Assembly (NCBI RefSeq): GCF_000003815.2
Contig: NC_049995.1
Location: 12,228,061 to 12,292,060 of the forward strand
DNA from: Branchiostoma floridae
Lineage: Eukaryota > Chordata > Leptocardii > Amphioxiformes > Branchiostomatidae
Reading direction: 5' to 3'
Length of the DNA: 64,000 nt
The notes beneath the pieces are model-generated. The model was not told the DNA's origin and made no database searches. It saw only the letters and a list, made by a program, of their open reading frames with translations. A program made the position numbers and the translations under genes. Below, piece after piece: positions 27,020-57,856 of the stretch; position 1 is the stretch's first letter, and each line of letters begins with the position of its first letter.

Positions 27020-27324
27020 TTAACAAATTACTTTTCTTGTCATACATGAATCTGAGATTGTTTTGTTAGGTATCCTTAAAAAGGTTTCCTATCTTGTCAA
27101 ATACACGTCATTAACGTTTTTGCTTCTGTATATGTGTTTTTATTCTACAACGAGTATGCCCGATGTCAATGTATGTTTACTCTTTAATTTTCTGGTAATT
27201 GAAGCTTAAGCTTCCATATACATGTGCAAATATACTGACATCGACATTTACAATCAAATGACACAGAAAGCAATTTTTGCGATGGTAACAATTATGAGTC
27301 AAGTATTATTGTTTCTTTGCATGT

Positions 27325-27710
27325 CCGGACAATATCTTGAACAAAGTTCAGTCAAAACACTCCACCCCAGCGGTGCAGTTTGGGATAGGTCCATATCCGG
27401 ACAATATCTTGAACAAAGTTCAGTCAAAACACTCCACCCCAGCGGTGCAGTTTGGGATAGGTCCATATCCGGACAATATCATGAATAAAGTTCAGTCAAA
27501 ACACTCCACCCCAGCGGTGCAGTTTGGGATAGGTCCATATCCGGACAATATCTTGAACAAAGTTCAGTCAAAACACTCCACCCCAGCGGTGCAGTTTGGG
27601 ATAGGTCCATATCCGGACAATATCTTGAAAAAGTTCAGTCAAAACACTCCACACCAGCGGTGCAGTTTGGGATAGGTCCATATCCGGACAATATCATGAC
27701 AAAAACTCAC
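27325..27710. repeat. Five-copy 72-bp tandem repeat
   Basis: A 72-bp unit beginning CCGGACAATATCTTGAACAA is repeated about five times with very few differences. Because 72 is divisible by three, reading frames stay open across it and yield 24-residue protein repeats (QSKHSTPAVQFGIGPYPDNI), but no start or splice context supports coding. The unit includes the element's TATCCGGACAATATC motif, so the array probably grew from a subterminal repeat. Confidence 0.92.
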
Positions 27711-31926: not shown

Positions 31927-34900
31927 TCATAACCAATGTAACTGCTTTCTACAGCACAATGAAATGATGTTGATTACAGTTATTTCACTGCACACTGATG
32001 GGTATTGAACTCTGCTCACGTGCTGAATCTCCATCAGAGTACGTTGGATTTTGTAGAACTCTGGTCTCTGGGCCGGATCAGCTTTCCAACAGTTCAGCAT
32101 TAGGGTGTATCTAGAGCATTCACAAAATAGGTCTCTTAAAAGAGTAGTTCCGTGTAAATCTAACTATAACGCAAGATGTACTCATTTAGAGATGTTTTTC
32201 ATAAAACTAAGAATTCATGATCCACTGAAAACGTGGATACTATTTATTCTGGTCGCCTATTCGCCCGGATGTTAGACACGTGATCCCTCCATTGTATAAG
32301 TATGCAGATTAGGGGCATCTCATCACTCGCAGGCCGCCTCCGACCACGTCTGGAGCTCAAGCTACGGCTCCTACGCAAAGCAGACAAAACTTCCCTGCGG
32401 CAAGATTGCGTTTGAACGCCGCAGGGTGGCTCGAGACAGCCCGTGGACTCCGGCGGTCACGGCGTGGTCACCGTCAGGTCGACGTTTGTTCTTTCCACGG
32501 AAGGTTTGGTGTCGGTTTCCAGTGGTCGGTTGGTACATTTTCTCCGCTTCTCCCGTATTGTAAAATTTTCTCGTGTATGTTGCGTTTTATAGAGCTTCGG
32601 AGCGACCCTTTTTGTTATGTTCTTTCGCCGTTTGTGATTTTCTTCTAGCACGCTGGATTTCTGATTGACAGCTGTATCGTTTTAATTTTGCATTTCTGTC
32701 GCTTATTCGTATGTATGAGCTTCTAGCCACGTGGGAGGAAAGACCCTAGTGCAGACAATGGCTGCTTTACACCTTGTTCTCGTTTTACAGTTTCTTCCCT
32801 TTTTATCCTAGACCGGGTCGAGTTTAGGACGTTTTTAGTTCACATTGGCGTTTTGCTCCGCTTGGAGCTGAGCGACTTTTGTGTGATTTCCTGACCTTGT
32901 GTACGTTTTTAGCAGGATCCGACAGCTACTCCAAGCAGATAGTTGGTGCCCACATGGCAAGATGGGAATTCTTTTGTCCACGCTATGTTTTTTGTATCTG
33001 TCCCAATCCTCTGCGAAGGGAAGCTGTGGGTGTTGGCATTCATTGCTAAGGCGTGGAGCAGAACGAGAGTTTCCAGATTTTTATTTCATTTTTTGATTTT
33101 CGTGAATATTTCAGGCAGGAACAGAGGACGACGAGGGCATGATCCAGGAGGCAAGATGGCGACCCCCCCCCCCTGGTTCTTTGTTTTCCAGGACTACTTG
33201 TCACCCCTCTGGGAGAGCCTGGCGTAGCGTTCAGCCACCCCATCTGAGCTTGGAAGGCTGCGGCTGGTACGATTTGGGTGTCATTTTCCGTTTTTGTGGC
33301 CAGGTAGAATTTTTTCTTTTGCTTTCCTAGATTGAACGTCGAGGCTGTGTATGGGGTTTCCTGCTACCATTTGTTTCAGTTTGCATGTGTATGAGTGTGC
33401 ACCTGTAAGGCGTGGTGACTGAGTTGTGGACACGCGTGGCCCACGACTACTCCACGTAACGCGGCTCGCTCGCATGTGGGATCTGGGCGGTGTGGAAGTT
33501 GCGTATGTTTTAAACTTGTCTGTCTGGGACCGGACCTGTTGCCGGGCGCCCGTCCCTCCCCACCATCTCATGGTTCACGTGTTGTTCATACAGGTCTGAC
33601 GCTCTCCCCCTCCGACAGCAGGGATGCGCGGGACACACCACTGCCAGCTACGGGACACGCCACCATCAACCTCGCCAGATGTGCGGCCATGGGACGCGTC
33701 GGTGGCATGCACAAGCTACAGCAGCAGAGAGGGGACAAGACGCGCCAGGGAACCTGTTAGGCTGTGATGTTTTGTTTTGTGAACCTTGTTTCTTTCACCG
33801 ATTAGAGTTGTTGAAAACAGATACCAGAGAATCCGAGGAGGTGGCTTCAGGGCGCAGCATTATGAGGAACAGCAGTTTGAGGATCAGTCCCGGCTGGCGC
33901 TCCGGCCCCTAACACCACCCAGCCCGCCAGTTCTTCCGACTTCACCGGCAGCTCAAGGAACGGACTGTGAGTCTTTTGGCTTCCTTTGTTAGGCAGGTCC
34001 CCCCCCCCTCCTCTCTTAATTTGTGAAATTCGTTTTCCAGTGCGATGGGGTGCCGCGGAATGCTGGATTGTTCGGTATTATTCGAGTAACCCTGCGTTAG
34101 CCTGACGTCCTTGTGAATAACACGTCGAGTTACCCGTTTGTTTCTAACGTTATTCCAGTGCGGGGATCCGAGAAGGTGTAGGACGGTGTATCCTTTCTCA
34201 GTACGGTGGAATATCATTCAGTGCGACGGGGTGCCGCGGAAAGCTGAATGATTCGGAAAGTATGCAGTTGTTTTAGCCGGTGTGGCATTATCCAGCGCGA
34301 AGGGTTTCCGCGAAAAGCTGGGCGATCCAAAAAAAAAAAAAAAAAATTGGGCACGTTTTTTCGTGACACACTGTGACGACATCCAGTGCGAAGGGGTTCC
34401 GCGGAAAGCTGGACGATCCGAGAAGTCTTGTACGTTCATCTACTTTTGTGACTTAATCCAGTGCGATGGGTTTCCGCGGAAGGCTGGATGATTTGTTAAG
34501 CGGAAGTGCGTAAGGACCTGGGCCGGACTGAGGCCTGGCTAAGGAGCGTGCGCGGGAAACGGGCTGTGAGGACAGAAGTGAGCAGCATGTTGTGCGTTTG
34601 TGCACAAATGATTTTGTATCGCATAGTGCTGATTTACCAGAGGCAGTACAGAGCACGGTTTTAGTTATGTCTGGTTCCTTCTTCATGGTTTGAGCGCTGT
34701 GTAAGATTAGAGTGGGTAGATTAGCGTTGGGTAAACGAGAGTGAATACTTAGGAATGTGTGGCTTTACGTAGTGAAAAAGTCCAGAGAAGGGCAAGATGT
34801 AGTGAGGGGGACAAGTCGAGAACAATGAGAAAGGGATAAGATGAGTAAGGGGAGAGGAAAGCTGAAAGAGCGAAGATATTAGGATGGGAAGTTGTTGACA

Positions 34901-37900
34901 GGGACAAGATAGGAGATGATTGGAAGAATGAACAGGAAAAGGAGCGAGACNNNNNNNNNNNNNNNNNNNNNNNNNNNNNNNNNNNNNNNNNNNNNNNNNN
35001 NNNNNNNNNNNNNNNNNNNNNNNNNNNNNNNNNNNNNNNNNNNNNNNNNNCATAGGAGAGTGTCATCGGAGGAGATATTAAGTGACAGGAAGGAAAGGCT
35101 CTGAAGCCAGAGAGGGCAAAGGCGGAAGACGACGATTCCCCATCACTTTATAACGGAGGGCGGATAGATGACCAGGACAAATAGGATACTATTTATTCTG
35201 GTCGCCTATTCGCCCGGATGTTAGACACGTGATCCCTCCATTGTATAAGTATGCAGATTAGGGGCATCTCATCACTCGCAGGCCGCCCTCCGACCACGTC
35301 TGGAGCCTGAAGCGACCCACCCGCCCAGCCCTCGGTAAGTTTTTTCTGCTTTGCGCGGAATTAGACGCCCGCTTGTAGGCGGTCGTCTCAGCGCATAGGT
35401 GACTTTAGGCTCCAGACGACGATTCCCCATCACTTTATAACGGAGGGCGGATAGATGACCAGGACAAATAGGATACTATTGATACTGGATTTTAAAACCT
35501 TGTCAATAACTATTGCTGTTTCTGATAAGTGTAGTATAAAGTAACTTGTATAATATCGAAAAACAATTGTACAAGGTACAATGTATGGCCTCTTCCGCTA
35601 TAAAATGTCTGACCATTTCTACGAGACCAATCTACCTTACAAAGGACTTATAATGCAGCACGGGATGGCAAAGTGCTTTTACAATTTTTGGTGGAACTTC
35701 TAACGCTTAGTCATAAGCAATGCATTAATATAAAGGAAAAACCATATAAGATTTACAGTTTGTCATCGCACTGTTTTGGTTTCTCCATCCTGCGTCCCTG
35801 CTGCACGCCATCCATCACTTCTCGTTTGGACATACCGGGGTACGGGGTGGCACCTGGTTGAAAACATACAAAACATACATGTAAATAAATATGACCGATT
35901 TTTTGGTTCACAGTTTTTAACATGTTTTTTATTTATCTATTTATTTTATTTATTTATCTCCAGACATGTGGGTAGCTTATTTGAAGTTGATTTCCAAGGG
36001 GGCCCACTACATAAATAACAAAAACGAAACGTGTTACATTCAGTAAGACAACCAGAGGACAACAAACAATATATACAAATAAACCGAAGCGCCATTACCA
36101 AGAACAGTTGTCGATGTCAACCAAAAACGTCAACGGTAGAGGTCAGAGGTCAATGTGCGGAGGAGTGTGTTTTAGGGCAGCTTTAAACTGCAGTAGAGTT
36201 GGTGCATGTCTAATGTCCACCGAAAGTGTATTGTAATATGTTGCTCCTCTGTATGCAAATGTGCGGTGGCCAGCTGTATTTATGTAATTGGGTTTATGGA
36301 GCAAAGAGACTTGTCTGGTGTTATGGCTGTGTAACAGGTGGTTGTGTACAAAGGTGGTATCCAGGTATGTCATTTTGTTAATATCAAGCTGTAGACTTCA
36401 ATGTAGCTTTTTTGTATGGGACTGCAATGTTATTAGCTGGCTATATCAAGACACACAAAAGACGATAAAGGTAGAATGTCACATGTGACTTTGCCTCTAG
36501 TTGGCAACAGTCTAGTAATGAAGATTGAAGTTATTTACAAGAAAAGTCAACCCACCTAGTGTGGCGATCTCCCAGAGCAGCACTCCGAAGGCCCAGACGT
36601 CCGTCTTGGTGGTGTACTTCCGGTGGAACAGCGACTCGGGGGCCATCCAGCGGATAGGAAGGCGGGTCTGGGGTAGATAAATTTAGCGACTTTATTGATA
36701 AAGAAGAACTTTAATGCATGGAAAGTAAGAGGAGACTGAGCAATCATTCAGATCAGTTAATATCTCCTCCTTATTTAGGCCAAGAAGGTTTCTATCAATC
36801 ATAGACATATGCTAGCTCAACGAATCTGGGCTAAAACAAACCGAATGGTGCGTGATAGGTACCTCAGTTGTCCTCTCGTACTCATCCCCCTCCCGTGAGA
36901 AGCCGAAGTCAGACACCTTACAGGTCTTGTCTGCAGCAACCAGCACGTTTCTGGTCGCCAGGTCACGGTGGATGATCTGAAATAATGTTGGATTTCATGA
37001 CCTTTTGGCATGCTGTGACTAGAAATCATGGACTAGAAATCATGTATATTTATTGTATTCAGACGTGACTCACAATTGCTTACCATTTTGGAAGACAGAA
37101 AGTTCATCCCCTTGGCCACGTCCCAGGCGAACTTGGTGAGGTCACGTGATGAGAGGGACTTGCTGCCGCCGTGTAAGTTCCCGTATGTTTGCTGGGTGCG
37201 GCTGGTGCGGAGGTTGGACTGGAGACTTCCTCCGGATACGTACTCTAGCAGCAGGTAGAACGGGTCTAGAAAAAAGGCCGTAACATATATATATATGTAA
37301 ACAAAGTTAAGGAAATCAGTTATGCCATAATTAACGTATTGTTTATGTTAAACACCGTGTGACAAGTAACTTGCCTGTGTCTGTGCAGCAGCCAAGGAAA
37401 GAGACGACGTTGCGATGAGTCCCGAGCACCTTCAGGATAGCCAACTCCTTGTTGAAAACAGTCAAAGGAGCTGGCCAATTGTTCACTATGAAAATTCAGA
37501 ATAGAAAGCAACATTTAGTCTAAACATGAGTAGAAGATAACAGTTTTTTTAGCCGCTCCCGATCCCTCTTAGTCTATATAGCTATATTTTTTAATAATAT
37601 TCATACAACGATATAGTTTATGGTTTTCCGCATATAAATTATGTGTATTATACTTCAAGTGAAATGCTTTGTAAATAGGGCAACGAATTTTACATTAAGT
37701 CTATATCTAGCTTACTTTTAACAGTCTTCACGGCAACCGTGGTTGTTCCTGGTTTACCAGCTATTCTCCAGGCCTCAGCTTTGTAGACTTCCCCGAACTC
37801 GCCTTCTCCCAGCCGTTCTTTGATTTCCAGACGATCTCGGGGAAATTCAAAGGGCAGCTTCACATCTTCATAAGTTGCACCTGGTGTTGTCTGTATCAAA

Positions 37901-40900
37901 GTACGTCGATATGATGGATATATCATTAAAAAAAGGTGCATTTGTACATAAGCTGATAGCGTATATGAATATAATTGATCCAAATGAATGCGAAAATAGG
38001 ATAAATTTGCTTGGTTGCAAACAATACCTCGTTCTCAATAGCACTGTGTGCTGTCAGCCCCTGATACGCAGACTGCACAAATATACAGACAGAATTGGTT
38101 AGCATTTTACCAGGAGCCTGGTACATGTACAGCCCAATTTCCTTCACATAGCTTAGAGGTTCCTACGGGGAAATACCAACTATAAGAAAACAATGAGATG
38201 GGTAAGGTCCATAGATAAAAAAAAAAAAACTCTGTTATCTATGAGCTATGCTTATGATATAGTCATGCACAATCCAAGGTTTGACAGATTTACACATGCG
38301 CATGCTTTGCTATGTTTTCCATTCAAATCAACAAAATCAAGTCATTCTTAACTACGATACTTACTGACTGCGGTATCCTTAGACTTTGGTACCCATCATT
38401 GCTCTATACGAAAACACACACACACACAAAAAAAACAGTTATTGTGGTACTTGTAGCTAGCGTGTTCTGGTACATGAATGTCAAGTAAATTGTAATATTA
38501 CTATTATTCCGGCAAATGTAAGATATAACAGTGACTATACACTTTGCATATAGATTAAGAACATTGTAAAGTTTATATGAAGTTTTGTCGTTTGTCAAAA
38601 TTGAAGTGATGCTTTTGCTCCCAGAAGTATATTAAGTACAAAACCACTCCCTTACCACCTGGTCCAGTGCCAAGGTGTTGTGATGATTTTCGGCGGGTTC
38701 TTCTGAAAAAAAGTTAATGATCATCATAGTGCAATTATAAGAGAAGAAATGGAGATAACATACACAAGAAATAATTTTGTCTTTTCAAAGGATTTACCGT
38801 TTACTTCTAATGCATTTTTTGTTATTGCTAACTTCATTAATTATCATGCTAATATACGTCTGTCTACATCACTAGCAGACAGTTCCTTGGAATTGAATTA
38901 AAAAAAAAAAGCCCCTAATGTCATAGTAATGTTGAAAAAAATGAACCAATGGGATCCTTGCAAAAAGCGGTTGTCATATGGGATATTAATGACCTATGGG
39001 GAAATTAGAGCCTTCTGATTGGTCAACGTCATTTGGCTATATGGTAATAATTTTTGAAGGATTTCATACCATGCCCATTGGCTGACTTCCGTCTCTTGAC
39101 AACAACCAGTGTGACAGCAATGATGGCCACAAGTACCATTACACACACCACCACTACAATGATGATGACGGTGGTTTTGTCATCACCTGCTACAAGGAAA
39201 CAAAAAGGAAAAGTCATTGAGAATGAAAGATGCATATTGGTGTATACCTTTGGCTAAGGTGCATATGTCACAAGTATCTAATCCCACCATTTACCAGTAA
39301 ATATTTGTGGTACTTTTCCATACTTAAGTCTTATACTTTTTTTGATAATTAGTATCTGTTAATGTCCCACCTTTTGTCCCACCAGTACTTTCTGCAGTAG
39401 TAGCGTTTATCGTTTGTCGTTGTACATGTGTTGGTGATGTGAGTGGTAACCCCGCGGTGGTTTCTGCGGTGCTGCGTATGGATGATGGCGGCGGTGACGC
39501 TGAAGACGAAACAAAAACTAGAGTTGGAGAAAGAACTAAACTGCTGTGGTCCGTGGTGTGAGGTGCTGCAAGAAAATTGTTGTGCCCAAAGTAGAAAGAC
39601 TTAAACGCAGGCGAACTTAATCGTGGTGTGTTGCTAGATGTTGCACATGCAGCAGAACTCGAAAGCGTTCACTACTAGAACACCAGGCAGTACTGGATGG
39701 CATAGATGGACAAAGTTGATTTGCCTGGTTCAAAAATGCTTGCTAATTGTATTACGTCCAAAGTCCCCACACGCCTATTACATATTATAGTCTCCTCCAT
39801 CGGCCTCTCTTTGGGCATTGTTGTGCGTAAATTGTTGAGGGGGAAGGGGGTTGTAACGGGGAGGGTGATTCGATATTTTCAACCGGGAAGGTTCTTATGC
39901 CGGGAAAGGAATACATGCCGGGAGGCGAGTAGTCTGCCCACCGCTGTATACGCACCCTCAATAACTTACGCCAGTGCTACAGAGAGGCAGATGGAGGAGA
40001 CTACCTGTGGGCACGTCGCATTCCTCCACGTTTTGTCCGCCGAGCGAGTAAAGGAAGTTGTAAGGGACTGTATTGATTATCAACTCAGAGACACATCCCT
40101 GGAAGTCGTATACAGGTAGGCTGGATATCAGAGGGTCGAAGGTCGGCGGAACTCCTCCCATGTACACTGGCCCCATCTGTTCCCCAACGTTGTTGAAGAA
40201 GTAAGACGGACGCCCGGCTTGGGCGGGGGTACCGTTGTCAATGGTTACTGTTGCTTGGCAACCAGGATGGGAAACGTGCCTGAAGTGTGGAAAATGATTG
40301 TTGACTGTTATCAATGATTATGCAACAGTTGCAATACAAAATGAAACCATTTTATGGTAAACAAGAGATGTTTAAAGAAATACCAACACAAATTCTTATT
40401 TTTAGCACTTACTCAATGGTGACAGAGATATTATTTCCATGATTCACAAGAGTGTTGGTATCCACAAGGAAGCGCTCGATAAAACAGGAAAAGTGGTACT
40501 GTAGAATGGAAGAAAACATCAGCACATTCAGAAGGCCTGGCCTTGTACATATTCCTAACATGAAGGCATGTCAAGATATGATTTTTCAAGGTACTATCAC
40601 AATAGCATTATCTTAAGATATGGCAATCCATCAAACAAAAAAACAATACTAATCTTGTTTTTCCCCTATTTCACTATTTTTAGAGTCTGCTGAGGATGTT
40701 ATCCGTAACAAGGAACACGAGACCACACATACCCAGACACATTGATAACTCAAAACCTTTGTACACGAAGGCAACAACAATGGCGTCACTAATGGATTTT
40801 CTAATAAAGTCTCAAAGTCACTTACATAGAGGACTCCATTCTCCACATACAGGTGAATGAAATAAGCGGCTGCCTCTGGTATTCTGTAGTCCTGTACCGC

Positions 40901-41436
40901 GTACAGCAGTGTCCCGTTCTCATGGGCTGTACGGAAGCTGACCTGGATGGTGTTACTCTCCTGGACAGTGTAGGCAGGAAACTCCAAGTACGAGTTGGTC
41001 AGGAACTTGGGGGTCACCACTCTCCCTGTAGAAGACAAAAGCTCATTTTCTATTGTCAGATTCGTCAATGCCAGGCTACGCAACTGAATTATTAGGGTTG
41101 ACATTTTGATTACAGAACAGAAAAGAACATAAAAACTGTATCTTGTAACTTACTGGCCTTGGAAAAAAAGAAGTTGACTTAAAAGTCAAATAGAGATTGG
41201 ACATTCCATATGATTCAAAGTAGGAAATGTCAAAGATGATATCTCTCACCTGAGCCGCAGAACAGTCCAGTATACCACCACGTACATTCACAACGTGTGA
41301 CCATCTGTCCGTTTACGAACTCATCGATACAGGTAGAACCGTACTGACATGCATGGGTCGTCCTGACACGTGAACACGGGGGTAGGAGTGGGGGTTGGGG
41401 TGATGGTTGGCACCGGGGTGGGGGTAAGTGTCGTCT
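31927..41436 (-). CDS. Receptor tyrosine kinase with EGF-like and laminin-G domains (5' end missing)
   Basis: Exons: 41436-41250 (Thr/Pro linker, EGF-like), 41025-40826, 40498-40413, 40279-40005 (laminin G), 39565-39371 (Ser/Thr stalk), 39186-39070 (membrane helix, then KRRK), 38702-38656, 38403-38365, 38162-38028, 37890-37716, 37485-37375, 37265-37084, 36976-36863, 36667-36556, 35853-35757, 32110-31927. From 41025 on, all phases agree. Kinase motifs: GEGEFGEV loop, VAVK lysine, [49 protein letters not shown] and WMAPE mark a tyrosine kinase, and all catalytic residues are present, so it should be active. The signal peptide and any further N-terminal domains are not found. The EGF exon has a frameshift (see findings). 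Confidence 0.9.
34037..34490 (+). repeat. Array of hairpin-forming repeats
   Basis: Five full units and one partial unit start near 34037, 34153 (partial), 34212, 34288, 34379 and 34454. Each reads about CCAGTGCGAAGGG, then TTCCGCGGAA, then GCTGG. The outer arms pair in every full unit, and the centre contains a CCGCGG palindrome. In the unit at 34212 both arms have changed together (ATCATTCAG with CTGAATGAT), so pairing is kept. Confidence 0.75.
34951..35050. other. Assembly gap (100 N)
   Basis: Exactly 100 N, within transposon-like unit 1. Confidence 1.
35190..35470. mobile_element. Transposon-like unit 2 (281 bp), short relative of unit 1
   Basis: Its first 115 or so bases and last 58 bases are nearly identical to the ends of unit 1, but the interior is only about 100 bp. 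It follows unit 1 directly, separated by a shared GGATAC (35184-35189), with a third GGATAC at 35471. It looks like an internally deleted copy inserted beside the larger one. Confidence 0.72.
35916..36373 (-). mobile_element. LINE 3' end with (TAAA)n-type tail in a kinase intron
   Basis: The minus-strand frame 36373-36143 reads [26 protein letters not shown] and LLQFKAALK. This matches the familiar C-terminus of invertebrate non-LTR polymerases (HNTR, then R.F.YRG..LWN.LP, then FK..LK). About 185 bp of 3' UTR follow and end in a TAAA-rich tail at about 35932-35958. It is a 5'-truncated insertion in the same orientation as the kinase gene. Confidence 0.8.
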
Positions 41437-41999
41437 CTGAAAGAGAACCAACGCTCTCTTTGGGGGCTGTGAGAATAGATCTATCCTGACTGTCCATCAC
41501 AATCATTCAGGGTGGCGGCCGGTTGAGGAGAAGAACTCAAGTTGAAGTTCCCTCACAGAAATATCCGGTTGAAATATCCGTAACCAGTCTGGTTACGTCA
41601 AAGAACAAAGGACAGATCGGAAAAAGCCCCCACTCACCCAAATGGTTGCGCCAGTATCACGATTGCCAATGTCGAATAGATGTGGCCATGCCACCGTTGC
41701 TACTATGGCCATGCAACGCCAGCATGTTGTTTGTGCAAATTACGTGACCACACGTCACAATATACCGGGTGAGTTCCCCCATTGTAGTGCGATCCTTTAG
41801 CAACTTATTACAGTACTGCAGCGGAAATTCCGGTTTTGGTATTCTATGTTCTGAATAAGCTTTAGTCCCGATTTTTGGTGATAGACAGCTCTTGGAAGTC
41901 CGTCCAACCATCCGTCCGTCGGTCCATCCCGTGGCTAACAGCGTAATCAGTCTGGCAGAGACAAGCTATTTAGAATCATTCTGTCATACATGTAGGGAT

Positions 42000-45900: not shown

Positions 45901-47865
45901 GCCGGGTACATTTATTTGCAGAAGTTTGACTTTTAGGCCACTTGAACTAGAGACTCTGGTATTGATTTTGAGAACCTAGAGCAAGCTATGTCGGATAGGG
46001 CCCTATGGGGTGAAATGTGTAATCGGTAGCCTGGCCTGATGTATATATGTGTGTAATACTGATAGTGCCATGTGTTTCAGGATGTGTCTAGTGAGAATGA
46101 AACAGGAAGGAGAAGAAGGAAAGATTGTGTGCCGGTGGCTGGTGGGACTTGAACCCTGGACTCCTAGTCCTAGTCTGTATTACTGACATTATTGTATGTT
46201 TCAGGATGTGTCTAGTGAGAATGAAACAGGAAGGAGAAGAAGGAAAGATTGTTTGCCGGTGGCTGGTCTACACTATGTGGGAAGACATCAGGACAAGAGG
46301 CAAGGCTATGGGGGTACGGAAGACTTCGTGATATATTTAGTATATGGAGAGTAATTCTGTTCAAACGTATTTCTGATTTCTAACACATAACCTAAGTGGG
46401 GCTTACCAAAATTTTGACTGTACGGCAGGCTTTTAGCCAGGCAGGCGTACAGGCGTACACTGTACAGCCTGTTAAAAAAATAACTGAAATTGTACGCCCT
46501 TACACTGGGGAGCACATCCTCTGACAAGCATGAAATTCTGACCAGGGGTGCTACAGGTCACATGTGGCCTGTGACGTGTCTGACAGTAAATTTGCTTCAT
46601 TCCCCCAAATTTGCCAATATTTGTCAAGAAATGAGCCATCCACTGCTTCTGTCACGCCACATCGTGGAGATAGAACATGTTACTTGATGAGTATGGATCA
46701 TAAGTTGCAGGAAGTTTCTGTCTCTGTTGATGGATATTGTCCATCTGGATCTACTTAAACTCTCTGCAACTTCTACTGTTCACCAAACGGGCTCGAAATA
46801 CTTTTTTTTGCATAGCTGCACTGGTGCAGGTATCATTGAAAATTACCTGCACCAGACAAATTTACCTGCACCACTCTGAATTTATGAACTATGGATCATA
46901 TTAAAACNNNNNNNNNNNNNNNNNNNNNNNNNNNNNNNNNNNNNNNNNNNNNNNNNNNNNNNNNNNNNNNNNNNNNNNNNNNNNNNNNNNNNNNNNNNNN
47001 NNNNNNNGTAGCTTTTGATTTAAGGAGAGTTAGTGTAGCTTTTGGCCCTTTGCAGCTTGTTTTGGAACTGTTGTGTGCTGTGTCCTTCGCAGATATCGTC
47101 CTCCCAAATGACTGAAAGCCTGAACGTGTGGACGGAGCAGTTTTACGCCATGATATTCTCGTATGATGAGGGGATCATCTGTGATGACAGGACGCTCGCT
47201 GGCGCCGTCTGGAGAACTGTCTTTAACAAGAGCTGTGACGATCCTGAGAAGATAGAACGACTCGTCGCATACATTAGACATCAGGTAAAGAAATAAAAGT
47301 GTAAAGGTAAAGCTACATAAAACAATTGTAGAAGTATTTAAATACATTTTGATAACACACTAGGTGCTTATTCAAGCTTTTGCGTATATTATTGGCAAAT
47401 GTTCAAATAGAAATACTGTTGATGTTGAAATTTTTGCGGTTTTGCAATGTTTTTGTTTTATTCTGATTAAGCCTTTACTATGAAATTGCTTGTTCTTTTG
47501 CCTGCCTAACCCTTCATTTCAGCAGAAAAATATGAATTGTCGCAAAACACTCCATTTTCTCACCACCTTGAAACTAAATCCTTGCAACCTTGAAGGCCTT
47601 TACAGTAGTTTCTAAATCAAGTGAGGCTATCGGGAGCAAACAGAGCTTGAATAAGATTATGAGAGGACATGCAAAATGAAACAGTGTCACTTTCTATTAG
47701 CTTGTCATTATGTTAAGACTACAATGTATGTTGAAATGCAGAAGTTTTTAAAAGCCTTTTTTCAAATTTCAGATGCAGCACGTTGATGCCCTTGACACTG
47801 AACAGCTGCTGAAGTACGGCAAGGTCCCCTGGCTGCCCTTTGACCCTAAAATGCCATTGGAATAG
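42958..47865 (+). CDS. UQCC1: Ubiquinol-cytochrome c reductase complex assembly factor 1 (8 exons)
   Basis: Exons: 42958-43032, 43533-43661, 44463-44582, 45151-45223, 45536-45593, 46205-46313, 47093-47284, 47773-47865. All phases fit and give 282 residues, close to the roughly 300 of the human protein. Family signatures are the KLGFTGKLRVNKYRLRNSGL segment, FSDFFE..GLPDTLNSWFLI, LHVWMCLVRMKQEG, MWEDIRTRGKAMG and YDEGIICDDRTLAGAVWRT. Together these are the CBP3/UQCC1 chaperone domain. UQCC1 helps make and assemble cytochrome b of complex III in mitochondria. The N-terminus is rich in Arg, Cys and Ala and poor in acidic residues, as expected for mitochondrial import. A gap of 100 N lies in intron 6. 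Two exon fragments are duplicated in introns. Confidence 0.94.
44724..44766 (+). pseudogene. Duplicated 3' part of UQCC1 exon 3
   Basis: This repeats the end of exon 3 with several base changes and keeps the donor (GATAT|GTAAGAC). It would read KKLGFTRKLCVNRY. No acceptor or upstream half is present. It lies 142 bp beyond the real exon in intron 3. Confidence 0.85.
44800..44926 (+). repeat. Direct repeat inside UQCC1 intron 3
   Basis: TTAATTGGCCTTTTGCCCCT followed by CTTT(A/T)CTTGCA occurs twice, near 44798 and 44894. With the neighbouring exon fragment, it shows repeated local duplication in this intron. Confidence 0.85.
46081..46143 (+). pseudogene. Duplicated 5' part of UQCC1 exon 6
   Basis: This is identical to the start of exon 6 (46205 onward) over about 63 bp except for one base, and the preceding TTTCAG acceptor is copied too. 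After CGGTGGCTGGT the sequence diverges and the frame meets TGA about 17 codons later. Splicing into it would truncate the protein inside the chaperone domain. Confidence 0.9.
46908..47007. other. Assembly gap (100 N)
   Basis: Exactly 100 N, in UQCC1 intron 6. Confidence 1.
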
Positions 47866-49987: not shown

Positions 49988-51223
49988 TCAGCGCTGCCTG
50001 TTTCTTACGTGTAAAAAATGTATCTTAAAACAACTGAAGACAATGCCCACAATTGCCGTCGATATAATCATAACCAAGCCGTGTATCTCTACTTGGAGCA
50101 TATCATTTTTCCAATAAGCTATATTGTTTCCATTCAAATATATAACGTTACTTACATTGTACAGCCTCGTAAAAGAAACAGTAGAAATAGATGTATTAGA
50201 AAAGTTCTTTTTCGTCGGGATGACTTCGCGAGTTTTCGTTGGGTCTTCGGACGGCGTCGGGATAACGTCGTGAGTTGTCGGCGCCTCTTCGGATGGCGTC
50301 GGGCGATCGTCGTGGGGAAAGATCACCTTTCGTAGAATGTTCGGGTATGTTGGATGAATATATTGTCTGTTGTTTGAACAGCTGATTTCCACCACATTTA
50401 CATACTGAACTAAAGTCATTTCAGGGCAGCAAGATAAAAATGCTTCGCCGCTTGTCTGTTTCTCAAGCGATGGTTCGCAATTTGGAATTTTTGTACTGTC
50501 CAATTGCAAGCGGATGTCATTTTCTGGATTAACCGTAGAATTGCCCATACAAGTCTTGTGTAATGGATTGCCAAACACATTGATGTAAACAGGTGGCGCA
50601 AAAGTTTTAATTTTTTCTTGAAAACCTGCGCTCAAGATTTGATTAAACTCGATAACGAACGCAACTGCCCTACGCATAGTACTGGTGTATTTGATGTAAT
50701 GATTTCGCAGCAGAGAATGCCACGGAACAAAAATAAGACGGTTACCAGAAAAGTCGACTTTGGAAAGCGCTTTGCAGCCTTCAAAAGCCTCTCGCTCCAC
50801 GCACTCGATCACGTTTCGTGACAAGTTCACCGACTTCAAATCCTCAAGCCCCGAAAAATAATGCTTAAACACTCGTTTTAACAGATTTCTCGAAAGGTCC
50901 ACTGTCATAAGTCGAACACAGGTGGTGATCGTACCTTCAAAAATTGTGGATATTTTGTTGTTCGTCAGATACAACCCCCTCAGCTTGGTTAAATCGAGGA
51001 AAGAAGTTTTCTTTAGCTCGGTGATTTGCCCGTCCTCTACGATCAACGTACCGACTGTACGGGGAATGTTGGCGGGGATATCGTCGAGGCGGCCCGACGA
51101 GCAAATGACGGAACGTCCGTTGGAGGTACACAGGCAGCGGGAGTCGAAAACGCACTCCTGAAAACCGTCCGTCAGAAATACACACGCCGACAATACCATC
51201 AATGCTTTCGCTAGTTTCCTCAT
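49988..51223 (-). CDS. Single-exon leucine-rich-repeat membrane protein
   Basis: The protein has 411 residues from the methionine just before the signal peptide (MRKLAKALMVLSACVFLTDG). An in-frame ATG lies 19 codons upstream but adds a basic segment unlike a leader. Residues 24-41 form a Cys-rich LRR N-cap. About four or five LRRs cover residues 58-170 (LRGLYLTNNKIS, LMTVDLSRNLLK, LKSVNLSRNVIE, LSKVDFSGNRL). A Cys-containing segment follows, then a Pro/Thr stalk with three PTPSE-like repeats. The membrane helix is residues 382-403 with an eight-residue basic tail. It is a type I surface protein without a visible signalling domain. Its ligand is unknown; immune or adhesive roles are common for amphioxus LRR proteins. 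Confidence 0.88.
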   Translation of the reverse strand: MRKLAKALMVLSACVFLTDGFQECVFDSRCLCTSNGRSVICSSGRLDDIPANIPRTVGTLIVEDGQITELKKTSFLDLTKLRGLYLTNNKISTIFEGTITTCVRLMTVDLSRNLLKRVFKHYFSGLEDLKSVNLSRNVIECVEREAFEGCKALSKVDFSGNRLIFVPWHSLLRNHYIKYTSTMRRAVAFVIEFNQILSAGFQEKIKTFAPPVYINVFGNPLHKTCMGNSTVNPENDIRLQLDSTKIPNCEPSLEKQTSGEAFLSCCPEMTLVQYVNVVEISCSNNRQYIHPTYPNILRKVIFPHDDRPTPSEEAPTTHDVIPTPSEDPTKTREVIPTKKNFSNTSISTVSFTRLYNVSNVIYLNGNNIAYWKNDMLQVEIHGLVMIISTAIVGIVFSCFKIHFLHVRNRQR

Positions 51224-55084: not shown

Positions 55085-56227
55085 GCTTTTTTTGTCAGCT
55101 TCTGTCAATCAAAGCAGGAAGGAAACGTGACTGTGCGTTATGTAATTCGTCCCTTACCTAACGTTAGTGTGTAAGACAGACAGTGAAAGTTGAACGGTCT
55201 CTTTTCGACCATCTTTCGACCAAGTTCTTCGATATCATTCCGACCAACCGATCCTTTTTACTTAGACACGTTTACCGTGCCGAAAGTTTTTGCATAGTTA
55301 TTTACAAAGCCCACGACTTCTATGACAACACCTGCCTGTATTTTATAAGGGACCGCCAGAATACCTTCGGTTGTATATGTTGAAGGCCGCGGGATTTCAA
55401 CATGTCCAGAGAATTGAAGCGTATTTTTCACATGAAGATCTAGTCTGTAACATTTAACGTGCCAAGAGAAAATCGTTCAATCCTCAAAAAGTGGAGCAGT
55501 GTCCGAGGGAGCAACGGTCGTATTGCTGGCAGTGTCGTGCGTACGGTGAGCTACTTTCCTGTTGTATGATACCGGTTCAAATCACTGTTGCCGTGGAACC
55601 CTTTTTGTTGAAAAATATTAGGGACGTTTTTGCATTGCCTTTCTTTAAATCGGACTTGAGTGACTACAAGTGCCTGTATTAGAAGAGTGAACGGGGATAC
55701 GATGTGAGGTCAACAGAGACATTGCCGTTTGGAAATCCTGTCCGCGTCGGTGTAACGGGGTATGGCGAGGTTAGGTTCGTCTCAGGACGTTTGGCTGTTT
55801 TGATGCAATTTTAAAAGCAGGCTGTGATAGAAAGAACTGCTGACAAGGATCCACGACAGTTTTTTTTTTCTAACAAGACATCCGACAGGCTTGTACGAAT
55901 CGTGCACGACTGTATATACCAAGAATGCCTGCAGTTTGCGATCGCACTTCTTATGTGGCTGGGCTCTTACGTGTGAGTTTTTAAAATTTCCCAGTGTTAA
56001 GGTGATATTCTTTCAATCTTTCTCCGAATTGCAGGTTAGGGAAATAGCATTTTTTTTCAAATAAATCTCCGTAAATTGTAGAGAGAATTCATTATTATGC
56101 AAACTAGCATAAACTCTTTTAATTTCGATATGTAAAACTCTTAATCTGATATAGAAAATTTACAAATATTTTATCATAATTATTGGATGATATTCAATGT
56201 TTTGGCTCAGTTGAAAGAAACACTAAG
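55085..56227. other. Region upstream of the LRR-Ig gene
   Basis: No gene that I can support. It presumably holds the promoter of the LRR-Ig gene, and A/T content rises sharply from 55980 toward its start. Confidence 0.4.
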
Positions 56228-57856
56228 ATGAATTACGCAACATTATTATTAGTGTTAAGCTGCTTTGTATATCATGGTACAAGCCGTTGTTTAAACTTAG
56301 ATTATTGTACCTGTCAAACTAAAGTAAGATGTGAAAGTACAGTCAACCATACTTATCATTCTATTCCACATGCTTTGCCACAAGACACAAAAGATCTGGA
56401 AATATTGTCACAAAATATTGAGAAAATTGCACCAAGCGATTTTTCTTACTTGCCAATCTTAACAAGATTGATAATACGACAAAGCGGGCTGAGAAAACTG
56501 CTCCCAAAATGCTTCGAAAACCTGCCGAATGTCTACGACATTGACCTTTCAGAAAATGACATTAGCATGGTCGTAAATGACACCTTTATTGGATTGGCAA
56601 AACTTCGTACCCTACGTTTAACAGATAACAAAATTAACTATGTTGCTGATCGTGCATTTTTTGGGCTTATTCATTTGACACATCTCTATCTCAACAACAA
56701 CGACCTAAAACGTATTCCTTCTGCCATTGCGTCTCTTTCTGCCTTAAATTTTCTCATACTAGAGAGAAACCAAATAGAACTATTTCCCGAAGATCTAGAA
56801 TTCATAAAACACGTTCGAATGTTGAACCTGATGTATAACCCTGTCAAATGCAACTGTAACCTTCGCCCGTTTCAACAGTATTTTTTGTTACAAAAGTTGG
56901 TCGGAATCTATAAGCGTTGGGGAATATTCTGTGAGAACGACAGAGGAAAAACAGTCACCATAGAAGTAGCACGTTTGAAAACCCTCCCATGCAATGCATA
57001 CACCGTCCAAGTGTTTCCGAAGAACATTTCTGTAAGCGTAGGAAGTAACGCGTCTTTGTCGTGTAAGATTGTTAAGTGTAAGGAATTCGAGGATCTTCGC
57101 TTTACGTGGTTCCAACCAAACGGAAACGTCATCAAAGAAGATCATTCCTACGACTTGGTGGGAATTCAGGACAATGTTACTGATGGACAAAATTCATCCA
57201 TGTTGATGACAACCCGTGGTGAAACATGTGCCTCTGTGCTATATCTCAAGCGAGTGTCGCTCAACGAGACAGGCACGTACACGTGTGCCGTCAGCGCTCC
57301 AAAAATCCACACGGTAAAGGCCAGTGCCCTATTAACTGTCTGGGCGCCAAAAGGCAATGCGACTACCAATACTACCCTGGAAAATCTGCACGTAAACAAT
57401 ACGGCTACACCGGATACATTGTCAAACCGTAGCCGAACTGTTGTTTTGCAACAAAACTCTACACAAACCAACGTGAATGTTCAAACAACACCTAAAGGGG
57501 TGAAAGACGACGGCAACCTAACTTTTATACTGCTGCCGGTGAAAGCGAATGAACAATTTGCTGACTATATCCGCTTTGTAATGATTGTGGTTGCTATTTC
57601 TGTATCTGTGTCTTTATTAGTAGCTGGGTTTGCAACTCTCTTTAGCGGTCAATGGTCACGTAGAAGTCTTGAAGAAAATTTGAGGATGGCTAAGGTTGAA
57701 GGAGTCGTACTACAGATAGGAATACGTTTCTCGAGTGTCCTTGTGTTGAGTTCGATGTGCCACGGACCAGCACACCACTACGAGAATGATGACCAGGAAT
57801 CACTGGCACATAATGGCGGTGCCGACCACATCTACGAAAATGCTCATGAGATGTAG
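56228..57856 (+). CDS. Single-exon LRR-Ig transmembrane receptor
   Basis: The protein has 542 residues, starting at the methionine beside the signal peptide (MNYATLLLVLSCFVYHGTS). Domains: LRR N-cap Cys cluster (21-35), about six LRRs (54-205; for example LRTLRLTDNKI, LTHLYLNNNDL), LRR C-cap (CNCN...C...C, 208-255), one Ig domain (258-371, Cys 279, Trp 294, ETGTYTCAV), and an Asn/Thr-rich stalk with many N-glycosylation sites. The membrane helix is 450-472, followed by a 70-residue tail. The tail ends with two HxYEN motifs (Tyr near 518 and 536). It belongs to the LRR-Ig class that is greatly expanded in amphioxus and is proposed to act in immune recognition or adhesion. The partner is unknown. 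An AATAAA lies at 58572. Confidence 0.93.
   Translation: MNYATLLLVLSCFVYHGTSRCLNLDYCTCQTKVRCESTVNHTYHSIPHALPQDTKDLEILSQNIEKIAPSDFSYLPILTRLIIRQSGLRKLLPKCFENLPNVYDIDLSENDISMVVNDTFIGLAKLRTLRLTDNKINYVADRAFFGLIHLTHLYLNNNDLKRIPSAIASLSALNFLILERNQIELFPEDLEFIKHVRMLNLMYNPVKCNCNLRPFQQYFLLQKLVGIYKRWGIFCENDRGKTVTIEVARLKTLPCNAYTVQVFPKNISVSVGSNASLSCKIVKCKEFEDLRFTWFQPNGNVIKEDHSYDLVGIQDNVTDGQNSSMLMTTRGETCASVLYLKRVSLNETGTYTCAVSAPKIHTVKASALLTVWAPKGNATTNTTLENLHVNNTATPDTLSNRSRTVVLQQNSTQTNVNVQTTPKGVKDDGNLTFILLPVKANEQFADYIRFVMIVVAISVSVSLLVAGFATLFSGQWSRRSLEENLRMAKVEGVVLQIGIRFSSVLVLSSMCHGPAHHYENDDQESLAHNGGADHIYENAHEM

Follow-up and report, generated by a model that had tools for sequence, protein, structure and literature searches.

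A candidate amphioxus receptor tyrosine kinase whose EGF-laminin-G ectodomain was probably duplicated from a gene elsewhere on the contig

Introduction

Among the receptor tyrosine kinases (RTKs), FGFR and VEGFR carry immunoglobulin (Ig) ectodomains, RET carries cadherin domains, and TIE combines Ig, EGF and fibronectin type III (FN3) domains. The TAM receptors AXL, MER and TYRO3 have an ectodomain of two Ig and two FN3 domains and a KW(I/L)AIES motif. GAS6 and protein S, which are TAM ligands, are secreted proteins with a Gla domain, four EGF domains and two laminin-G domains, in which EGF precedes laminin-G. Here, we describe a gene predicted to encode an RTK with an EGF-laminin-G ectodomain. 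It lies on the minus strand of a 64,000-nucleotide stretch of the Branchiostoma floridae genome, termed the window (C17:12,228,061-12,292,060, C17 being the contig that holds it, NC_049995.1).

Our analysis indicates that this locus is probably one gene for a chimeric RTK, in which the inner half of a multi-copy kinase family has been joined to an EGF-laminin-G unit duplicated from another gene of C17. Donors of new receptor types have usually been lost where domains were shuffled long ago; here, the acceptor family and a likely donor are found in one genome.

One study reports that ectodomains have been shuffled extensively among holozoan tyrosine kinases in general (PMC8662651). Two lancelet proteome papers discuss Ryk (PMC4967905, PMC6071037), and the former argues in its title that errors of gene prediction may lie behind the high rate of innovation in lancelet proteomes. 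This warning applies to the gene model presented here as well; a chance join is nevertheless unlikely, because the donor unit and the kinase family are both found in the genome. A search of the published literature found no description of the receptor, which is no proof that it is unpublished.

A continuous reading from laminin-G to tyrosine kinase

The final gene model comprises 16 exons and 15 introns (14 GT-AG and one GC-AG), with matching phases at every junction (Table 1). The 15 exons from 41,025 to 31,927 are open for 659 amino acids, from laminin-G exon 1 to a TGA at 31,927-31,929, and encode in order a complete laminin-G domain, an S/T-rich linker, one membrane helix, a juxtamembrane segment and a complete tyrosine kinase. 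The first-pass annotation of this DNA had proposed such a chain, in phase from laminin-G through a membrane helix to a complete kinase, and the reading is borne out at one locus. Its exon set, however, overlooked laminin-G exon 2; that exon supplies the middle of the laminin-G domain, so without it the domain is neither complete nor in phase.

Both domains were recognized by Pfam in the same spliced reading. The laminin-G region, which the annotation had proposed to check in this way, matches Laminin_G_2 at 43.7 bits (cut-off 22.9) over profile positions 1-124 of 126, and the kinase region matches PK_Tyr_Ser-Thr at 300 bits (cut-off 23.1). The query contained a provisional juxtamembrane exon, since replaced, that falls outside both scored domains; a juxtamembrane exon at 38,162-38,111 was dropped for that at 38,072-38,028 after comparison with relatives. 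The layout is that of an RTK: a single 19-residue membrane helix (mean hydropathy 3.8) separates the extracellular part from the kinase, which keeps its catalytic K, HRD, DFG and APE motifs. The linker exon lies 0.44 kb from laminin-G exon 3 and 0.18 kb from the membrane exon. In the Protein Data Bank, the nearest matches to the ectodomain are laminin alpha-2 and neurexin.

Table 1. Exons of the candidate receptor gene and extent of its duplicated unit (window positions).
Feature	Position	Strand	Remarks
Borrowed EGF-laminin-G unit (candidate), outer limits of similarity	39983..41452	-	compared with C17:2433439-2436110
P/T-rich linker and EGF-like exon	41250..41436	-	phase 1 at both ends in the relative's reading; CATG CATG duplication at 41348-41355 shifts the frame
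Laminin-G exon 1	40826..41025	-	phase 1 to 0; 95% amino acid identity to the C17:2.43 Mb copy
Laminin-G exon 2	40413..40498	-	phase 0 to 2; 90% amino acid identity to the C17:2.43 Mb copy; absent from first-pass annotation
Laminin-G exon 3	40005..40279	-	phase 2 to 1; 91% amino acid identity to the C17:2.43 Mb copy
S/T-rich linker exon	39371..39565	-	phase 1 to 1
Membrane-helix exon	39070..39189	-	phase-1 intron at its acceptor, shared with five relatives
Juxtamembrane exon 1	38656..38702	-
Juxtamembrane exon 2	38365..38403	-	DGYQSL
Juxtamembrane exon 3	38028..38072	-	AYQGL
Kinase exon K1	37716..37890	-	YEDVK, glycine loop, VAVK lysine
Kinase exon K2	37375..37485	-	GC-AG donor (CAG/GCAAGT, slash at the exon border) at 37375
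Kinase exon K3	37084..37265	-	kinase insert, YGNL
Kinase exon K4	36863..36976	-
Kinase exon K5	36556..36667	-	APE, DVWAFG
Kinase exon K6	35757..35853	-
Last kinase exon K7 and stop codon	31927..32110	-

Origin of the EGF-laminin-G unit

The EGF-laminin-G unit has one close counterpart, 9.8 Mb away on the same contig. A search of the genome (513 Mb in 431 contigs) with positions 40,800-41,500 of the window found one other match, at C17:2,433,439-2,434,056 (81%), and a protein search with EGF and laminin-G gave 11 matches, of which only those in the window and at C17:2.43 Mb were strong. Amino acid identity between these two loci is 77% in the EGF exon and 90% or more in the laminin-G exons (Table 1). 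At the DNA level, the similarity falls into three blastn blocks (41452-40817, 80.7%; 40539-40376, 86.1%; 40295-39983, 84.9%) that begin 16 bp before the EGF exon and end 22 bp past laminin-G exon 3. It spans the intron between the EGF exon and laminin-G exon 1, and the intron stretches between the laminin-G exons are partly unmatched.

After this unit, the C17:2.43 Mb locus holds a second EGF match (27.5 bits) and further laminin-G-like stretches of 25-40% identity (E 1.9e-5 to 0.008). Scanned alone, two of these later stretches gave no Pfam match. The locus is likely a tandem EGF-laminin-G gene whose later laminin-G domains are putative. Among the matches listed, there is no kinase within about 240 kb of it, the nearest being of the distant, single-exon sort.

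Over 215 codons, the two ectodomain copies differ by a synonymous divergence (dS) of 0.31 and a nonsynonymous divergence (dN) of 0.058, a dN/dS ratio of 0.19; the proportion of synonymous differences (pS) is 0.25. Against relatives, pS is higher in kinase exons K1, K2 and K7 (0.46-0.90), so the ectodomain copy appears to be younger than the kinase lineage.

A kinase family with changing ectodomains

A genome search with the window kinase gave at least 148 matches, and the counts drawn from it are lower bounds; 10-20 kb was then taken around each intron-bearing copy. At least 11 intron-bearing relatives are 72-92% identical to the window gene over K3, and at least two intronless relatives are 68-69% identical over the whole domain, while other kinases among the matches listed are 31-45% identical. 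When exons are compared singly, each of the 11 intron-bearing relatives reaches 82-97% identity in its best-matching exon. The annotation had suggested a lineage-specific family, and membership in a multi-copy kinase family of this genome, with shared kinase exons, has held up. Against four human reference kinases, the family forms one clade (100/99).

The window gene carries the features by which the family is recognized, namely its kinase and juxtamembrane exons, the YQSL and YQGL motifs, YEDV and a YxNL kinase insert. Counting the window gene, 11 of 12 intron-bearing copies have a match to the YQSL exon and 8 of 12 to the YQGL exon, which is weakly matched in one further copy; both exons are short, and some of these matches have E values near 1. 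The YxNL insert is present in all 12 intron-bearing copies and in neither intronless one. By eye, the two YxxL motifs are spaced by 7 residues in the window gene and by 11 in seven relatives. A membrane exon was found in the window gene and six relatives. Read by eye, it is preceded by a phase-1 intron in the window gene and in five of these relatives, which carry Ig or cadherin ectodomains; the sixth is the C10 copy. That copy also has three separate DGYQSL-like matches upstream of its kinase exons, a pattern that multiplication of the juxtamembrane exon would produce. Across the genome, PF07714 has 141 matches. Most lie in long intronless frames, of which many have 900-970 amino acids and stand in tandem clusters (for example, on C7, C8, C10 and C12), which amounts to a large single-exon kinase expansion.

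Ectodomains vary widely among the 13 relatives: eight have Ig domains, two cadherin and one laminin-G with EGF, and in two none was recognized. All Ig relatives pass a Pfam Ig cut-off; C17 holds four of them, C7 two and C12 one, and the eighth is an intronless copy on C16. Both cadherin relatives, on C15, also pass (59.5 and 49.2 bits); the lower score belongs to one segment of the C15:4.007 Mb copy, in which two other short segments fail. An in-frame stop lies inside that passing segment, marking a possible pseudogene or assembly error. The C10 relative combines laminin-G with several EGF domains; one Laminin_G_2 match passes at 58.2 bits and a second fails at 19.1. FN3-like exons stand beside Ig in three C17 copies and fell below the Pfam cut-off in both of the two scanned. 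No ectodomain family was found in the 7.5 kb upstream of the copy at C17:13.350 Mb, where the only match was to the reverse transcriptase RVT_1 (135.7 bits), and none was recognized in the second intronless copy on C16, which adjoins a run of N. The other intronless copy encodes Ig domains, helix, juxtamembrane segment and kinase in a single frame of 624 amino acids, direct evidence that the kinase cassette takes an extracellular part; an EGF match of 27.6 bits lies upstream of it in a separate frame.

In the family tree, the window gene is sister to the pair of Ig-type genes on C7 (90/87), and the C10 laminin-G gene falls outside the rest of the family (81/77). Because the window gene adjoins an Ig-type pair and the C10 gene sits outside, a separate gain of laminin-G in the window gene is favoured, with moderate support, over inheritance from a C10-like ancestor.

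Homogenized kinase exons

Copies on different chromosomes are unusually similar in K3 and K5, far more so than in K1, K2 and K7. Between the window gene and seven copies on C17 and C7, pS is 0.12-0.19 in K3 and 0.07-0.25 in K5, 0.23-0.59 in K4 and 0.18-0.36 in K6, and 0.54-0.70 in K1 and 0.58-0.84 in K2. Homogenization is thus clear in K3 and K5, weaker in K4 and K6, and not seen in K1, K2 or K7. The C15, C12 and C10 copies reach pS 0.43-0.74 in K3, so there is no general limit on synonymous change in this exon. The similarity mostly ends at exon borders; exceptions are the C7 copies and that at C17:13.350 Mb, in which it runs through the K3-K4 intron. Conversion limited to exons, possibly through cDNA, is our guess at the process.

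Placement of the kinase

The annotation had called for a metazoan RTK tree. Our tree comprised the window kinase and eight reference kinases, one per family (FGFR1, RET, VEGFR2, TIE2, AXL, TRKA, INSR and EGFR). The window kinase groups with FGFR1, RET, VEGFR2 and TIE2 (93/96), apart from AXL, TRKA, INSR and EGFR, with no fork starred, and it is not specifically with TIE2. Pairwise identities are 46.0% to FGFR1, 44.6% to RET, 42.6% to TIE2, 40.9% to VEGFR2, 40.2% to AXL, 38.4% to TRKA, 36.6% to INSR and 33.2% to EGFR. Among the best 60 of 2633 Protein Data Bank matches, FGFR1 scores 269 bits and RET 260 bits; the list is headed by an EGFR construct, for which the scores of two copies were added together. 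In the family tree, TIE2 stands next to the family as a whole (94/90), at a point where, according to a warning from the tree program, long branches meet.

How the receptor may have arisen and may signal

The simplest account of this anatomy is a module swap at a phase-1 intron. An EGF-laminin-G unit with phase-1 introns on both sides would have been placed before the phase-1 membrane exon; with the unit so bounded and the membrane exon following a phase-1 intron, the insertion itself would have kept the frame. We infer that the module was placed in a single event.

In the predicted receptor, laminin-G would bind a matrix component, a glycan or a protein ligand, and clustering would lead to phosphorylation of its only activation-loop tyrosine (EYERTT) and so activate the kinase. 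SH2 proteins would then probably be recruited by phosphorylated tyrosines of the YQSL and YQGL motifs in the juxtamembrane segment and of YGNL in the kinase insert. A YxN motif fits a Grb2 site, and paired YxxL motifs fit the spacing of an immunoreceptor tyrosine-based activation motif (ITAM) as well as the YxxL endocytosis signal. The output may accordingly run through YGNL (Grb2-type) and the YxxL pair (ITAM-like or endocytic).

More tentatively, the whole family may be a modular system. One signalling cassette would offer a phase-1 intron at which 1-1 modules dock, so that Ig, cadherin and EGF-laminin-G receptors keep arising, while exon-limited and possibly cDNA-mediated conversion keeps the central kinase exons alike across chromosomes. 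The window gene would be a recent outcome of this process, and its donor can still be recognized. If so, receptors with different outsides share the same intracellular output. The limits of the module can be read to within tens of bases, which makes the origin of a new binding specificity with a kept signalling output testable.

Alternative readings

Several points weigh against the chimeric receptor proposed here. The join of laminin-G and kinase is predicted from genome sequence, and that of ectodomain and kinase in the intron-bearing relatives is deduced from order, strand and phase. For the linker exon, no relative was found in the 10-20 kb around each intron-bearing copy. The fork uniting the window gene with the C7 pair carries no star, and the homogenized exons may have influenced it; when K3-K6 are left out, the window gene has no resolved position. 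The remaining points concern the outer end of the gene.

As assembled, the EGF exon (41,436-41,250) contains CATG twice, a 4-bp tandem duplication. The frame is broken, so that the readings up to CQDDPC and from QYGSTC fall in different frames, there is no Pfam EGF match, and a message entering the exon in phase 1 would stop inside EGF. Read in the assembled frame, the exon gave only a chance zinc-finger match. The copy at C17:2.43 Mb has CATG once and an intact EGF frame; that exon reaches 23.9 bits when scanned alone (cut-off 21.5), and the cut-off was not passed in a whole-frame scan at E 0.01. The EGF-like domain of the first-pass annotation therefore stands through this intact relative, whereas the window exon is frameshifted and scores 14.8 bits, below the cut-off, even when its frame is adjusted. 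Moreover, no convincing signal peptide or first exon was found in 41.4-50 kb, which includes a 100-N gap at 46,908-47,007, and upstream of 41,436 no Ig, EGF or laminin-G match appeared on the minus strand to 60.7 kb and nothing could be assigned to the gene. Room for a 5ʹ end is restricted by a plus-strand chaperone gene and a minus-strand leucine-rich repeat (LRR) gene.

The broken EGF exon and the missing signal-peptide exon suggest that the chimera may be real in structure and its copy in the window no longer make a receptor, being a null allele or young pseudogene. We consider this unlikely. All other exons are open, splice sites are canonical save the one GC-AG, and the catalytic motifs are kept. 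The pairwise dN/dS of the kinase against 11 relatives (0.11-0.22), like that of the ectodomain, is low, although such pairwise values also reflect constraint acting on the relative. As for the duplication, it could be allelic or an assembly error.

It is far less probable that two genes are present, a laminin-G fragment next to a kinase gene with a more internal start. The join read from genome sequence would allow this, as would the fact that the laminin-G unit itself duplicates part of another gene. However, all junctions are in phase, the linker exon reads without a Met, the minus strand from 31.9 to 41.6 kb holds no other recognized extracellular domain, and a start at the in-frame ATG immediately upstream of the membrane exon would yield a receptor with no ectodomain.

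The weakest alternative, a fusion of TAM-ligand-type domains with a TAM-type kinase as the annotation's link to GAS6, protein S and TAM receptors implied, recalls the EGF and laminin-G order of those ligands and is scarcely credible, since the kinase falls outside AXL and has RWMAPES in place of AXL's KWIAIES, and the ectodomain unit, with only one EGF and one laminin-G found, was copied from another gene of C17.

Neighbouring features

Upstream of the receptor gene, a ubiquinol-cytochrome c chaperone (PF03981) lies on the plus strand, with exon matches at 46,206-46,349 and 47,099-47,293 (23 and 52 bits). The LRR exon at about 51 kb (49988-51223, minus strand) was rejected as an N-terminal part of the receptor; it is a separate single-exon gene of 411 amino acids with an apparent signal peptide. 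Further out, a single-exon LRR and Ig protein with a membrane-helix-like stretch occupies 56000-57800 on the plus strand, and a tandem repeat at 27320-27703 has 5.4 copies of a 72-bp unit (96% matches).

Comparison with known systems

The probable chimeric receptor can be set beside four systems. With its likely donor at C17:2.43 Mb, it shares one unit, which matches in laminin-G exons and intron DNA; the donor gene differs in its second EGF and further laminin-G-like stretches. With its relatives at C17:13.2-13.35 Mb and on C7, C12, C15, C10 and C16, it shares kinase exons, as well as those membrane and juxtamembrane exons that could be identified, whereas ectodomains differ even between close kinase relatives.

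Like GAS6 and protein S, the protein has EGF followed by laminin-G. Unlike them, it is predicted to be membrane-bound with its own kinase, it has one EGF and one laminin-G domain, and no Gla match was found. Neither a TAM nor a TIE ectodomain was recognized: on the minus strand from 31.9 to 60.7 kb, a scan at E 0.1 matched neither Ig nor FN3. Finally, the kinase groups with FGFR, RET, VEGFR and TIE and has a kinase insert as they do, but the predicted receptor differs from all four in presenting EGF-laminin-G on its outside.

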